From positions 1 to 37,291 of IMG/VR virus record IMGVR_UViG_3300003321_000307: a stretch of 37,291 bases of DNA; one strand, 5' to 3'. Under the pieces are notes generated by a model that saw only the letters and a program-made list of their open reading frames with translations, did no database searches and had not been told where the DNA came from. Below, one piece after another: positions 31,238-36,379 of this stretch. The number at the start of each line of letters is the position of its first letter. Within the stretch, counting starts at the first letter, position 1. The stretch comes from a virus. The translations under genes were made by a program, and so were the position numbers.

Positions 31238-32509
31238 TTACCAACTCCAATCATAAACACCATCCAATATCAATTCAGTCGCCCCCCAAACCAACGCATC
31301 TATCCTGTTCGGTGATTTTTCGCCTTGTTTAGCAGACCAGCTTGTCATTTCAAGTTCCAAATCAGCATGTTCTCCAACGTGATGTGCTTTACCCTGCTCA
31401 TATAGCGCGGCAACCGGCTCGGCCCTGGTTAACTTATCCCGTGTGGCGTGAACCGACTTGTATGATACATTTTCATCAACCTGTCGAATAACAGCCTCGA
31501 TCAAGTCACCTCCATTGTTTACCTCGCCAATAATCCTATCTGCCCTGTACTTTCTATATAACCCAACGGCTGTTTTAGCCCATTCGGAAGGCGTATAAAT
31601 ATCACTTTTATCCTCCAATACATACAAATGCCCATCATACCCTTCTGCCGTCACTACAATTCCTGTTTCGTCGGATGTGTCTTTTGAAGTCACAGCCGGA
31701 TCAATGGCAACAACAATTCTTTTATAAACAGGTGTTTTAGATTCGACATTATAGGAATTTGATTCTTTTACCCTTGTTGAATTAATCAGTTCATCTGTCC
31801 ATAACGCGCCTTCTGTTTCTTCTGTAAATTCACCTTTAAGGAAACGCTTTTTCTTTCTCGATGGCAACGATTCCAAAAGCTCCATATAATCAGCCGATAT
31901 GTTTTCCAGATTATCCTCCGGGTTCATATGCAACTGACCGTATTGGTCGACATGCGACAGTGATATATTTGTCTCTGGCTCTACATGGCCAAAGAATATT
32001 TTGTATGTCCAGTGTTTTTTAGATGGCGGATTCTCGTCTATAAATAACAGATTTCTTGCGCCTTCAATATATTGAGCCAACCGGGTGAGTAATGTTGTGT
32101 AAGCCTCGTAACTTATCTGGCTGGCCTCATTTACAAATACCGTTAAAAACTCCATACCCAATATCTTTTCAGACCGTTCCTTATCATCCAAACCACCGAT
32201 CCATATTTCAGATCCGTTAGGCAGTGTAATAAAAAAATCAGCATTGTTCCATTTGACTACCAGATTAGGAAAACACACTTTTAAAACCTTCCTTAGCGTA
32301 TCCATCCATATAGAGTTTTTAACATGGTTAAACCTGAAACGGCATATCAGGTGACGGGAACCGGGGAACTTGCAGGCTATGACAATAATAGCATAAACTA
32401 TTATGAAGCTCTTCCCTGAACGGCTGCCTCCGAAAAGTAAGAATTTTGATTTACCTGATGTGAATAGCCGAATAGCCGCTTCCTGTATTTTGGTCTTTAC
32501 AAAGCTCAT
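31238..32509 (-). CDS. Large terminase subunit (PBSX-type packaging ATPase-nuclease)
   Basis: 423 residues. Walker A is FGGSRSGKSF (residues 27-35), Walker B TVFVNEAS (123-130) and the C-motif follows in LLFIDENPPS. The C-terminal nuclease has Asp270 in VVAIDPAVTSKD, Glu329 in IIGEVNNGGD and a late Asp in RIDALVWG. This is the headful/cos packaging motor. The start overlaps the small terminase stop by 4 nt. All expected catalytic residues are present. Confidence 0.95.
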   Translation of the reverse strand: MSFVKTKIQEAAIRLFTSGKSKFLLFGGSRSGKSFIIVYAIIVIACKFPGSRHLICRFRFNHVKNSIWMDTLRKVLKVCFPNLVVKWNNADFFITLPNGSEIWIGGLDDKERSEKILGMEFLTVFVNEASQISYEAYTTLLTRLAQYIEGARNLLFIDENPPSKKHWTYKIFFGHVEPETNISLSHVDQYGQLHMNPEDNLENISADYMELLESLPSRKKKRFLKGEFTEETEGALWTDELINSTRVKESNSYNVESKTPVYKRIVVAIDPAVTSKDTSDETGIVVTAEGYDGHLYVLEDKSDIYTPSEWAKTAVGLYRKYRADRIIGEVNNGGDLIEAVIRQVDENVSYKSVHATRDKLTRAEPVAALYEQGKAHHVGEHADLELEMTSWSAKQGEKSPNRIDALVWGATELILDGVYDWSW

Positions 32510-32898
32510 TCCCCGAGTTTTGAATCTGCGTCGGTGATGTTGATAGCAATAGAACCCATATTATCAACTTCCTGACGTTCTATATAGCCGCGTTTTTTGC
32601 CTTTTGTTTTTAAGAAAAATATAATTGCAGTATCAGATGGGGGTTGCTCATAAATAGTAGGTTCACCTTTTTGATTATACGTCTGGACTGTTATACCATC
32701 TATTTTTTCCATTAACTTAGATTCGACAAAATCTATAGCTGACTCATTGACATCATCAACAGCCTGCTTAAATTCAGGATCATTATTACACCAATCATAA
32801 AAAGTAGACCTGGCAATATTAGCAGACTCGCAAGCGGCTGATACTATTCCCTTAGTCTTTTTAAGATATTCTAAAACCGTCTTTTTATTATTGTCCAT
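32506..32898 (-). CDS. Small terminase subunit
   Basis: The 130-residue protein has an N-terminal helix-turn-helix (VLEYLKKTKGIVSAACESAN then ARSTFYDWCNNDPEFKQAV), a central coiled coil (VNESAIDFVESKLMEKIDGI) and a C-terminal KTKGKKRGYIERQEVDNM typical of phBC6A51-like small terminases. It recognises the packaging site in known relatives. It lies between the iteron-rich origin-like region and the large terminase, with ATGA overlap into the latter. Confidence 0.85.
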   Translation of the reverse strand: MDNNKKTVLEYLKKTKGIVSAACESANIARSTFYDWCNNDPEFKQAVDDVNESAIDFVESKLMEKIDGITVQTYNQKGEPTIYEQPPSDTAIIFFLKTKGKKRGYIERQEVDNMGSIAINITDADSKLGE

Positions 32899-33057
32899 TT
32901 TGTAGGTTAATCCACTAAAGTTTCATTCCAATTTTACAAAATTTTCTCCAAAAATCCATCTTTTAACATTAATCCATCAAGGCCGTATATCATGCATGAT
33001 TTTGCCACCGTTTGAAGGTACGCAAAATCATCTGGTTTGACTAATTAAATACAAAAG

Positions 33058-33378
33058 TCAGGGCAACTCAACACATTTTTTAGGGCAACTCAAATTTTGT
33101 TTAGGGCAGGTTTGACAAAATATTATTCTGTTTAGGGCAACTCGATTTTTACAAAAAAGGCGATTCTAAAGCGTATAAGCACTTTAGGGCAAGTAGGGCA
33201 ACTCAATTTATATATTTTCGCGTGCGAGAAGTTTTTTTATATAAAAAATATTTCTTTTTGACTTGCCCTAACTACCCTAAACGCCATTCTGAGTAAACTG
33301 GCCGAAATTTTCAGGGCAACTAAACTTTTAGTCAGTTGCCCTATTAGGGCAGTTCGCATGTTTTTAGGGCAACTCAAA
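33058..33378. repeat. TAGGGCA iteron array, probable replication origin
   Basis: Nine direct copies of (T/C)AGGGCA, usually extended to TAGGGCAACTCAA, start at 33058, 33080, 33101, 33132, 33184, 33193, 33311, 33344 and 33365. Two inverted copies are at 33263-33269 and 33336-33342, with a degenerate one at 33272. The first three are 21-22 bp apart (two helical turns). Between copies lies an AT-rich stretch with a perfect 16-bp palindrome, T6ATATA6 (33232-33247), as in a DNA-unwinding element. It occupies the 475-bp gap between primase-helicase and small terminase; the rest of that gap (32899-33057) shows no gene. Confidence 0.75.
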
Positions 33379-34777
33379 ATATAAAATGCCATATTCCATT
33401 GGTTTTTTGCTCATGTAAAACTATTTTATGGAACTCGCAATAATTTTTTAGCATAGAGTAGAATGTGCGGCTTGCTATTCGGGAATTTTTATATTGATCT
33501 TTGAATTTCTGGTAATAAGCACTTTTTCTTATAGACTCACCAGGTGATAATAAATTCTCATCTATAAAATCTAAAAAGTCAGGTGACAATTCAGCCATCA
33601 GGCGTTTTTCAGGAAGGTTTATCAATTGTTGTTCGATGAGTCCTTTACGAAGATAAAGCTGGCAACAATCTATTATAAAGTTGTCAAATTCATTATATTG
33701 CTTATCGTCCCATTCATCGAACATCATAATTTTAAATTCATCATAAGGAGTGAATTTTTTATGATAATATTGACTGATCTCTATTTCAAATCTTCTGCGT
33801 TCGTGAGAATTACCAGCCCCCCGTATGGCGTAATTGGTTGTTATAGCTATTTTTGGGCTGTTTGCAAAAGGTAAATAAAAAGACTCTAAACCTTTCTTTT
33901 CAACCGTTATTCCATCTGTCAAGACGCTGAATAATCGTTCAAAGTCAAAATTCTTTTGCACATCCTGGAAGAAGTGTAAGCGGGTATCTTTATTAATTTT
34001 TTGATAAACAAAATTCTTATCGAAATTAAATGTCTTACCCTCTTCGGTAGCGGTGACTAAAAATTTTTCAGTAGCTTTAATAAGTAGCCCCTTTCCGGTT
34101 CCGCCTTCAGGATGATCGCTAATAACTTCATCATTAAAAATTATAGCCGGGCAATAAGCCGGGTTTTTGTAAGATGAAATTAAAAAACCAAGCGCTGAGC
34201 AAATAGTCTCATATCGAGGAACTTCTTTATTCGAAACATTGAATACAAAAGTTTTAAAATCGCTTGATGATTCTTCAACAGGAGTAAAATCACGCGGCAA
34301 TATCTGGCTTTCCCATATGTAACCATTTAAAGACGAGTATGGATGAGTTGTGATAGATTGAGTAGTTATTTTTACGATACAATTTTGATAATAAATTTGG
34401 ATGGCGTCTTTACGGTCCCGCCTGAATTCTATTTCCTTCGCTTCAAGCGTTCTTAAAAAATCGTCATTAAAAAAATTACCTACCCGGTTTAAAAAAGATT
34501 CATAAATCGATCGTTCTTCATTTTTATGGATGAAATTCAATACTTCATCGACCAAATCCTTTTTGCCAATTTCTTTGACTATATTATCTATGATGCGTAT
34601 AAAGGAATGCCGGTGAATATTATTACGATAAAGGAAATAACCACGTTCGTGTAAAAAAGCTAATGTGTTTATCCGGTCGATTTGAATTTTACCATTTCCA
34701 TCCCGGTAATAAAGATCAAAATGATTATATTCTTTAGTGTCAGCCACATGGGCAACTGTCATTTTACTACCCATCAA
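33374..34777 (-). CDS. Primase-helicase family ATPase (DUF5906/SF3-like)
   Basis: 467 residues. The C-terminal two thirds are an SF3-like ATPase: Walker A PEGGTGKGLLIKA (223-235), Walker B-like LHFFQDV (268-273), sensor AITTNYAI (311-318) and a basic ERRRFEI (327-333). The N-terminal 170 residues are alpha/beta without a convincing archaeo-eukaryotic primase motif. Family members unwind DNA at phage origins. The TAGGGCA iterons overlap its 3' end, so it is a candidate origin-binding or loading helicase. It overlaps the coiled-coil gene upstream by 4 nt. Confidence 0.85.
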   Translation of the reverse strand: MMGSKMTVAHVADTKEYNHFDLYYRDGNGKIQIDRINTLAFLHERGYFLYRNNIHRHSFIRIIDNIVKEIGKKDLVDEVLNFIHKNEERSIYESFLNRVGNFFNDDFLRTLEAKEIEFRRDRKDAIQIYYQNCIVKITTQSITTHPYSSLNGYIWESQILPRDFTPVEESSSDFKTFVFNVSNKEVPRYETICSALGFLISSYKNPAYCPAIIFNDEVISDHPEGGTGKGLLIKATEKFLVTATEEGKTFNFDKNFVYQKINKDTRLHFFQDVQKNFDFERLFSVLTDGITVEKKGLESFYLPFANSPKIAITTNYAIRGAGNSHERRRFEIEISQYYHKKFTPYDEFKIMMFDEWDDKQYNEFDNFIIDCCQLYLRKGLIEQQLINLPEKRLMAELSPDFLDFIDENLLSPGESIRKSAYYQKFKDQYKNSRIASRTFYSMLKNYCEFHKIVLHEQKTNGIWHFIF

Positions 34778-35199
34778 CGCCGATCCTCCGGCATCTCATT
34801 TTCATTTAAAGTGTTTAGGTATAATTGATGTTTAAGATTAGCGTTTTCTTCTTTTAATCGCCAAATTTCCTCTCGCATTTTTCCAGCATTCCATTTGAGG
34901 GCATAATTATCGGTTTGAACTTTTGCGATAACATCAATATGCTTATTTAAAATTTCGACACGCTCCCGTGCTTCTGATTTTTTATTGCCGGGATTGCGTT
35001 TTTCCCATTTTAATAAGTCAGAAAGGAATTCAACAGAAATTCCTTTGATAATCATTATTGAATGAGAGACCTGACTTTGCTCATTATAAAGCTCCATTGC
35101 GGCCTGCGTGAAAATCTGCTGATATTGAAGTTCTTGTTTTGTGAGTTTTAATTCCTTATTCGCGTAACGGAATTGGTCTAAGTAGTCAAGATTTGGCAT
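34774..35199 (-). CDS. Coiled-coil protein between two helicases
   Basis: 141 residues, predominantly coiled coil: LDQFRYANKELKLTKQELQY, then a mid segment VSHSIMIIKGISVEFLSDLL, and a C-terminal coil KMREEIWRLKEENANLKHQL. No catalytic motif. It ends in an ATGA overlap with the primase-helicase and begins 4 nt after the Pif1-like helicase. It could be a helicase loader or adaptor by position; unproven. Confidence 0.65.
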   Translation of the reverse strand: MPNLDYLDQFRYANKELKLTKQELQYQQIFTQAAMELYNEQSQVSHSIMIIKGISVEFLSDLLKWEKRNPGNKKSEARERVEILNKHIDVIAKVQTDNYALKWNAGKMREEIWRLKEENANLKHQLYLNTLNENEMPEDRR

Positions 35200-35203
35200 A
35201 AAG

Positions 35204-36379
35204 TTATCGGTTTACAATAATTTTTAATCCTTTAGGTGATTTAACTCGTGAAAGAGCGGTGTAAAGTTGACCTTTTGAAAAGCATGGGATTGATAAATCA
35301 ATAGTTATTTCATCAAATGTCAACCCCTGGCTTTTGTGGATTGTAAGTGCATATGCAAGTTTTATTGGATACTGATATATTGATCCTATTTCCTGTAATT
35401 CTAAAGCATCCTGATCTTCATTTAAAACATATTCGTGTTTCGATATTTCAATAGGGTCTAAAGCATATTCAATACCTGATACCTCAATAAAATATTGTCC
35501 TTTCCTTTCAATAAATATTCCAAGCGTTCCGTTAACTAATGGATTATTTTTAGAATTGACGAGATACATGATCTTACATCCACTCTTAACTTTTATTAAA
35601 GGCTCAAAATTAAATTCATCCGCTTTGGCATTCCCTGTTACAACAGCCTCAAAAATTATTTCAGGCTGATTGATTAAATCCAATCCTTGTTGATTATATT
35701 TGGCTACAGTAGAATTATGCGGGGCAAGGATTATACCGTGATAATCTTTAGAAAGAAATTGCTTAAAATATTGGCTTTTACCGCCTTCCCGGATAATATT
35801 CAAATGGCTTATAAATTCTTCATCGGATTGTCGTTGAACTTCATCGAGTTCAATAGTTATTGGAGATAATTGTTTATAAACAGTAGCATTATAAAATTCC
35901 TCACCCTCATACGTTTTATATAAAATTGACCTGAAATTATCATCGATTGGAGCTGGTAATTGTTTAAGGTCGCCTATGAAAATAATCTGCTTTGAAGATA
36001 GCGGCAAACATCCATTTTTTAATAATGTCCAATTCATTGCATCGAGCATATCTGGACGCAACATAGATACCTCGTCAATAAATAATACATCTATTGCATC
36101 TAATAATTTACGCTTTTCGCCTTTCAAAAAATTACAGGCAGCGAAGTCAAGGACGCCAAATGGTTTTAACCCAAACATAGAGTGAATAGTTTGGCCCCCG
36201 ACATTATTTGCTGCCACGCCTGTAGGCGCAATAAAGGCGACTTTTTTACCTTTTTGTTTTAATAGATCAAATGCGTATTTAGAAATAAATGATTTACCAG
36301 TTCCGGCTTTTCCGGTGAGAAAAATATTTTCCCCTTCTAATATTTTATTTAAGAAAAGTTGCTGTGATTTGGCTAACAT
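35204..36379 (-). CDS. Pif1-like SF1B helicase
   Basis: The 391-residue product shows Pif1/RecD-type motifs in order: motif I FLTGKAGTGKSF (21-31), Ia AFIAPTGVAANNV, II VLFIDEVSML, III IFIGDLKQLPAP, IV around LDEVQRQSD, V AYALTIHKSQGLTFDEI, and VI LYTALSRVKSP. It is close to minimal size, lacking large accessory domains. The substrate is expected to be a 5'-3' unwound phage intermediate. It begins just after a terminator-like hairpin flanked by 14-bp repeats. Start ATG 36377-36379. Confidence 0.92.
   Translation of the reverse strand: MLAKSQQLFLNKILEGENIFLTGKAGTGKSFISKYAFDLLKQKGKKVAFIAPTGVAANNVGGQTIHSMFGLKPFGVLDFAACNFLKGEKRKLLDAIDVLFIDEVSMLRPDMLDAMNWTLLKNGCLPLSSKQIIFIGDLKQLPAPIDDNFRSILYKTYEGEEFYNATVYKQLSPITIELDEVQRQSDEEFISHLNIIREGGKSQYFKQFLSKDYHGIILAPHNSTVAKYNQQGLDLINQPEIIFEAVVTGNAKADEFNFEPLIKVKSGCKIMYLVNSKNNPLVNGTLGIFIERKGQYFIEVSGIEYALDPIEISKHEYVLNEDQDALELQEIGSIYQYPIKLAYALTIHKSQGLTFDEITIDLSIPCFSKGQLYTALSRVKSPKGLKIIVNR

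Follow-up and report, generated by a model that had tools for sequence, protein, structure and literature searches.

An iteron array with a bilateral layout beside an SF3/D5-type helicase gene is a probable replication origin of a Bacteroidota-type phage

We analyzed a 37,291-nucleotide stretch of viral DNA (IMG/VR record IMGVR_UViG_3300003321_000307, positions 1 to 37,291), hereafter termed the window. A dense cluster of short repeats lies between a helicase gene and the gene encoding the small terminase, both on the minus strand. The features of this locus, in window coordinates, are as follows.

32506..32898, minus strand: small terminase gene, the next gene after the array; its product is disfavoured as the iteron binder
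33060, 33082, 33103, 33134, 33186, 33195, 33313, 33346 and 33366, plus strand: (T/C)AGGGCA copies
33269 and 33342 (ends), minus strand: (T/C)AGGGCA copies
33059..33140, plus strand: distal outer iterons, with AGGGCA at 33060, 33082, 33103 and 33134 (22, 21 and 31 bp apart); consensus TAGGGCAACTCAA
33186..33203, plus strand: inner iteron pair A, AGGGCAAGTAGGGCAACT, two copies at a 9-bp distance; 52 bp separate the pair from the closest outer iteron
33203..33262: AT-rich core, 60 bp, 78% AT (window about 60%), the presumed unwinding element
33233-33248: palindrome TTTTTTATATAAAAAA inside the core
33262..33279, minus strand: inner iteron pair B, in the opposite orientation to pair A, copies 9 bp apart, one of them degenerate (AGGGTA)
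33273-33278, minus strand: the degenerate AGGGTA, a twelfth copy that completes an inverted pair
33312..33377: proximal outer iterons at 33313 (plus), 33342 (minus), 33346 (plus) and 33366 (plus), the last overlapping the helicase stop codon
33374..34777, minus strand: initiator helicase gene, SF3/D5 type, 466 aa from a likely ATG at 34774 (phrog_28855, 2e-88)
33374..33601, minus strand: winged helix at the helicase C terminus (residues 392-466), with a predicted recognition helix at 435-448; the proposed iteron reader
34774..35199, minus strand: coiled-coil-like protein (141 aa) encoded upstream of the helicase; in most relatives it does not adjoin the helicase gene

AGGGCA occurs 11 times within about 310 bp (33060-33371), with nine copies on the plus strand and two on the minus strand, which confirms the 11-copy array reported in a preliminary description of this DNA. 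Outside the array, the 37 kb hold 15 further copies, which corresponds to 0.13 expected per 326 bp (Poisson P ~5e-18). In the rest of the window, the most densely clustered 6-mer reached 6 copies per 326 bp, and 100 first-order Markov simulations never exceeded 7. The array is intergenic (33053-33378), taking up most of the space that separates the two genes; the overlap with the helicase gene described earlier holds for the last extended iteron copy, which covers the stop codon by about 4 bp, but not for the remainder. Plus-strand spacings of 22, 21, 31, 52 and 9 bp fall near multiples of the helical turn except for the 9-bp pair. No second iteron cluster was found in the window, a record that may be incomplete, and an Rfam search returned no match. 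GC skew gave no usable origin signal, as almost every gene is on the same strand. One of the few plus-strand genes, at 378-1043, matches Mom-like DNA modification proteins (phrog_1384, 1e-34), suggesting that the phage DNA may be modified. An inverted repeat, TGATTTTGC...GCAAAATCA, lies at 33000-33035, beyond the array and before the small terminase gene, adjoining ATCATGCATGAT.

Read along the minus strand from the helicase stop codon, the array runs through the proximal outer iterons, the inverted inner pair, the core, the opposite inner pair, a 52-bp interval and the outer iterons spaced 31, 21 and 22 bp. The minus strand of the core carries CGCACGCGAAAATATATAAA, which is common to relatives, and relatives also have in common a CACACG-TAAAATATATAAAA-like stretch adjoining one inner pair. 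The palindrome singled out in the preliminary description is present; its exact form is not kept in relatives, whereas an AT-rich core is.

The adjacent gene, previously taken for a primase-helicase, encodes a 467-aa protein that comprises the helicase only, with no fused TOPRIM primase. No primase was found among the window proteins scanned, and the record may be a fragment. The AlphaFold model (pLDDT 88.7) shows an SF3/D5-like ATPase followed by a C-terminal winged helix, and a model of the L024 helicase, whose iterons belong to a different class, likewise places a winged helix at the C-terminal end. The top match in the PDB was SaPI5 Rep (7om0/7ola; Z 21.4, residues 12-462 with the C-terminal region included, 381-394 residues, 11-12% identity), followed by ASFV PrimPol and poxvirus D5/E5. 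This kinship rests on fold, since a sequence-profile search of solved structures gave no credible match. Walker A (GGTGKG) occupies residues 224-229, and G224, G227, K228, D271, N314 and R327 are invariant in 29 relatives. Pfam DUF5906 was detected in 26 of these 29, with the window protein itself below threshold. The predicted fold and the invariant residues identify the protein as a putative SF3/D5-type initiator helicase. A Pif1/Dda-like helicase is encoded nearby (35204-36379, minus strand); it also occurs in L005 and L027 and was not found in most relatives.

Searching viral contigs with the helicase yielded 56 loci, to which two further viral scans added few. Helicases lacking a primase formed a set of 16 distinct proteins including that of the window (L006 duplicates L005; L012 and L025 were left out), all from loci whose sequence continues past the helicase gene and 47-67% identical to the window helicase. 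In all 16 loci, the intergenic stretch that follows the 3′ end of the helicase gene contains an array. The first copies lie at or near the helicase stop codon in most of them; L022 and L027 differ in that their main arrays begin some 280-350 bp past it. About eight iteron sequences occur among the relatives (TTGCCCTA, CTGCCCTA, GTGCCCTA, TTGCCCCA, TTGTCAGAA, GTTTGTCAA, GTTTGTAAT and CTTTGTAAT/C), all arranged in one layout: outer iterons, about 52 bp, an inverted pair (9 bp), a core of 50-75 bp (81% AT), an inverted pair (9 bp), about 52 bp and outer iterons. The 9-bp pairs are present in all 16 related arrays.

A layout search blind to iteron sequence recovered 16 of 16 arrays against 1 of 285 control chunks of real DNA from outside arrays, although the layout had first been noticed in those same 16 loci. 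For that reason, a later set carries weight, namely bacterial genomes from the phylum to which L067 belongs, searched after the layout had been defined. Fused-primase homologues in these genomes showed the layout at 9-bp spacing with no mismatch (L076), one mismatch (L087 and L102) or two (L089), and no control matches at the 0-2 mismatch level were found within these four loci. L090, L091, L096, L103 and L075 carry strong arrays of other sequences. Among the fused-primase relatives, a clear 3′ array was seen in roughly nine of about 38 loci, the rest having none or one below the null; thus, beyond the primase-less clade the array is found in only part of the loci. L015, the nearest annotated phage relative (40% identical), has no clear array at the corresponding place. 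L054:3318-3740 holds twelve ACTACGAT iterons in a large mirror-image repeat about an AT-rich centre, a variant of the bilateral layout. In L097, a distant homologue from a bacterial genome, eleven ATTACAAA copies lie about 1 kb downstream (+960 to +1176 past the helicase).

Primase-type domains (BT4734-like_N and PriCT_1) precede the helicase in the fused relatives, and a separate BT4734/PriCT_1 or CHC2 gene is present in relatives. The same two domains form a separate gene before the helicase at L009:3186-3995, L026:2137-2949 and L012:2785-3603, a pattern that reads as gene split or fusion within this helicase family. The relatives include Polaribacter and Bacteroides phages as well as Lacinutrix and Ignavibacteria assemblies, from which we infer that the host phylum is Bacteroidota.

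The helicase-linked arrays, the bilateral layout around an AT-rich core and the SaPI5 Rep fold support the earlier suggestion of an iteron origin served by an adjacent initiator. Very likely, a Bacteroidota-type phage starts its replication at this array, where the helicase would bind the iterons through its C-terminal winged helix, the inner pairs would seed rings and the core would melt.

Initiators often autoregulate, and the array sits in the gap before the structural genes, as would suit an operator through which the helicase or a repressor controls those genes or helicase expression. However, the array lies 3′ of the helicase gene, away from the helicase promoter, and it keeps its place and layout among relatives while the downstream gene varies. 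Melting also explains better why inverted pairs flank a core of 81% AT. An operator is therefore a very unlikely account of the array, although regulation may be a second role.

The preliminary description had named binding by the small terminase, and hence a packaging (pac/cos) site, as the finding that would speak against an origin, and the small terminase gene does directly follow the array in the window, L005 and L006. In L007, however, another gene intervenes, and other loci have nuclease or other genes next to the array. The small terminase of L021 is 61% identical to that of the window and is encoded about 1.5 kb off, yet the iterons there are the unrelated CTTTGTAAT, which disfavours a packaging site; similarly, L026 has CTTTGTAAT iterons despite a large terminase that is 81% identical. 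Terminase genes do not follow the iterons; the array always adjoins the helicase. We regard a packaging site as highly unlikely.

Within the origin reading, the protein that reads the iterons can be sought in what varies with them. The last ~75 residues of the helicase group in line with iteron type. Winged-helix identity correlated with iteron similarity when the ATPase core was controlled for (partial r 0.82, permutation p 2e-4, computed without phylogeny and with consensuses picked by eye), whereas the core showed no such relation when the winged helix was controlled for (partial r -0.05). In sliding windows, r rose from 0.1-0.3 in the N-terminal part to 0.77-0.87 after about residue 391-411. 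The helicases of L022, L024 and L019 are about 73-78% identical, yet they go with three different iterons. Aligned with L005, the window is 82% identical in iteron columns and 61% in spacers (p 2.5e-4). This co-variation argues that iteron specificity is set by the C-terminal domain of the helicase.

Two other readers had been proposed, the N-terminal part of the helicase and the coiled-coil protein. A coiled-coil gene adjoins the helicase gene in the window, and one of similar size does so in L005. Nevertheless, the gene upstream of the helicase is coiled-coil-like only in the window and L005/L006; in most relatives it is different (an SF2 helicase, a BT4734/PriCT_1 primase-type protein or another gene), and the iterons do not follow it. 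Recognition by the N-terminal domain fits poorly with the sliding-window correlations given above, and either alternative appears most improbable. Iteron arrays can serve partition, but a partition or incompatibility (centromere-like) array is hardly credible here, as the iterons follow the helicase winged helix and no ParA/ParB-like match was found among the window proteins scanned (a subset of ORFs).

For the origin bound by its helicase, a sequence of events can be proposed on the model of SaPI Rep and SCCmec Cch2. The outer iterons, mostly on one helix face (spacing of about 21, 31 and 52 bp), would gather the helicase, which would contact them by way of the C-terminal winged helix. Two rings facing in opposite directions would then be seeded at the two inverted 9-bp pairs, on either side of the AT-rich core, and melting of the core would let the two helicases start bidirectional replication. 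The winged helix and the array would change together under a fixed layout because each helicase recognizes its own iterons.

More broadly, these loci probably form one family of phage origins whose near mirror-symmetric layout is fixed, with inverted 9-bp iteron pairs flanking an AT-rich core and outer iterons some five turns off. The helicase winged helix and its iterons would be swapped as one specificity cassette, so that even closely related phages would carry origins without cross-reaction, and a PICI-type origin would not be confined to satellites. The range of iterons, each paired with a fitting winged helix while the ATPase core hardly changes, amounts to a natural experiment on how an initiator changes its target, of possible use for deriving a recognition code for the winged-helix domain and for predicting origins in phages known from sequence only.

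Among known systems, the window can be compared with the Rep-ori of SaPIs and PICIs (SaPI5, SaPIbov1, EcCICFT073), which has the same Rep helicase fold, an origin directly 3′ of rep and a C-terminal iteron reader (PMC6092414, PMC7581432). In SaPI and SCCmec elements, the C-terminal domain of Rep or Cch2 binds iterons directly downstream of its gene, and both proteins are thought to self-load (PMC7581432). The array and helicase of the window probably work in the same way, but within a full phage genome: unlike a PICI satellite, the window carries genes for TerS, TerL, portal, Mu F, protease, capsid, tail and tape-measure-like proteins. Its helicase has no fused primase, none was found adjacent to it among the window proteins scanned in this possibly fragmentary record, and protein identity is 11-12%. 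SCCmec Cch2 with its putative origin is similar in that Cch2 is a D5-type helicase standing alone, and its C-terminal domain binds iterons immediately past its own gene; the accessible part of that source gives three AAGTG iterons and describes no bilateral layout, in contrast to the window (PMC7581432).

Phage P4 places crr 3′ of the alpha gene, with type 1 repeats that include a 9-bp pair and inverted copies beyond it (NC_001609 annotation), and the C-terminal winged helix of alpha binds the repeats, as relayed in PMC4234260 (citing Yeo et al. 2002). Alpha, unlike the window helicase, includes a TOPRIM primase, and P4 also depends on a distinct ori at a distance of about 4.5 kb, whereas the window, possibly an incomplete record, has one array only. 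The pRN1 ORF904 replicon likewise combines an SF3 helicase bearing a C-terminal winged helix with an origin 3′ of the gene, but that origin is a 100-nt stem-loop and the primase is fused, where the window has iterons and no fused primase (PMC4234260). In the open-access literature searched, we met no account of origins of this kind in Bacteroidota phages, which does not prove their absence. The Rep-ori organization has been called unique to PICIs in one paper; judging from the loci compared here, what appears to set the window apart from PICIs is a full phage genome, a helicase with no fused primase and a clade with swappable pairs of iteron and winged helix.
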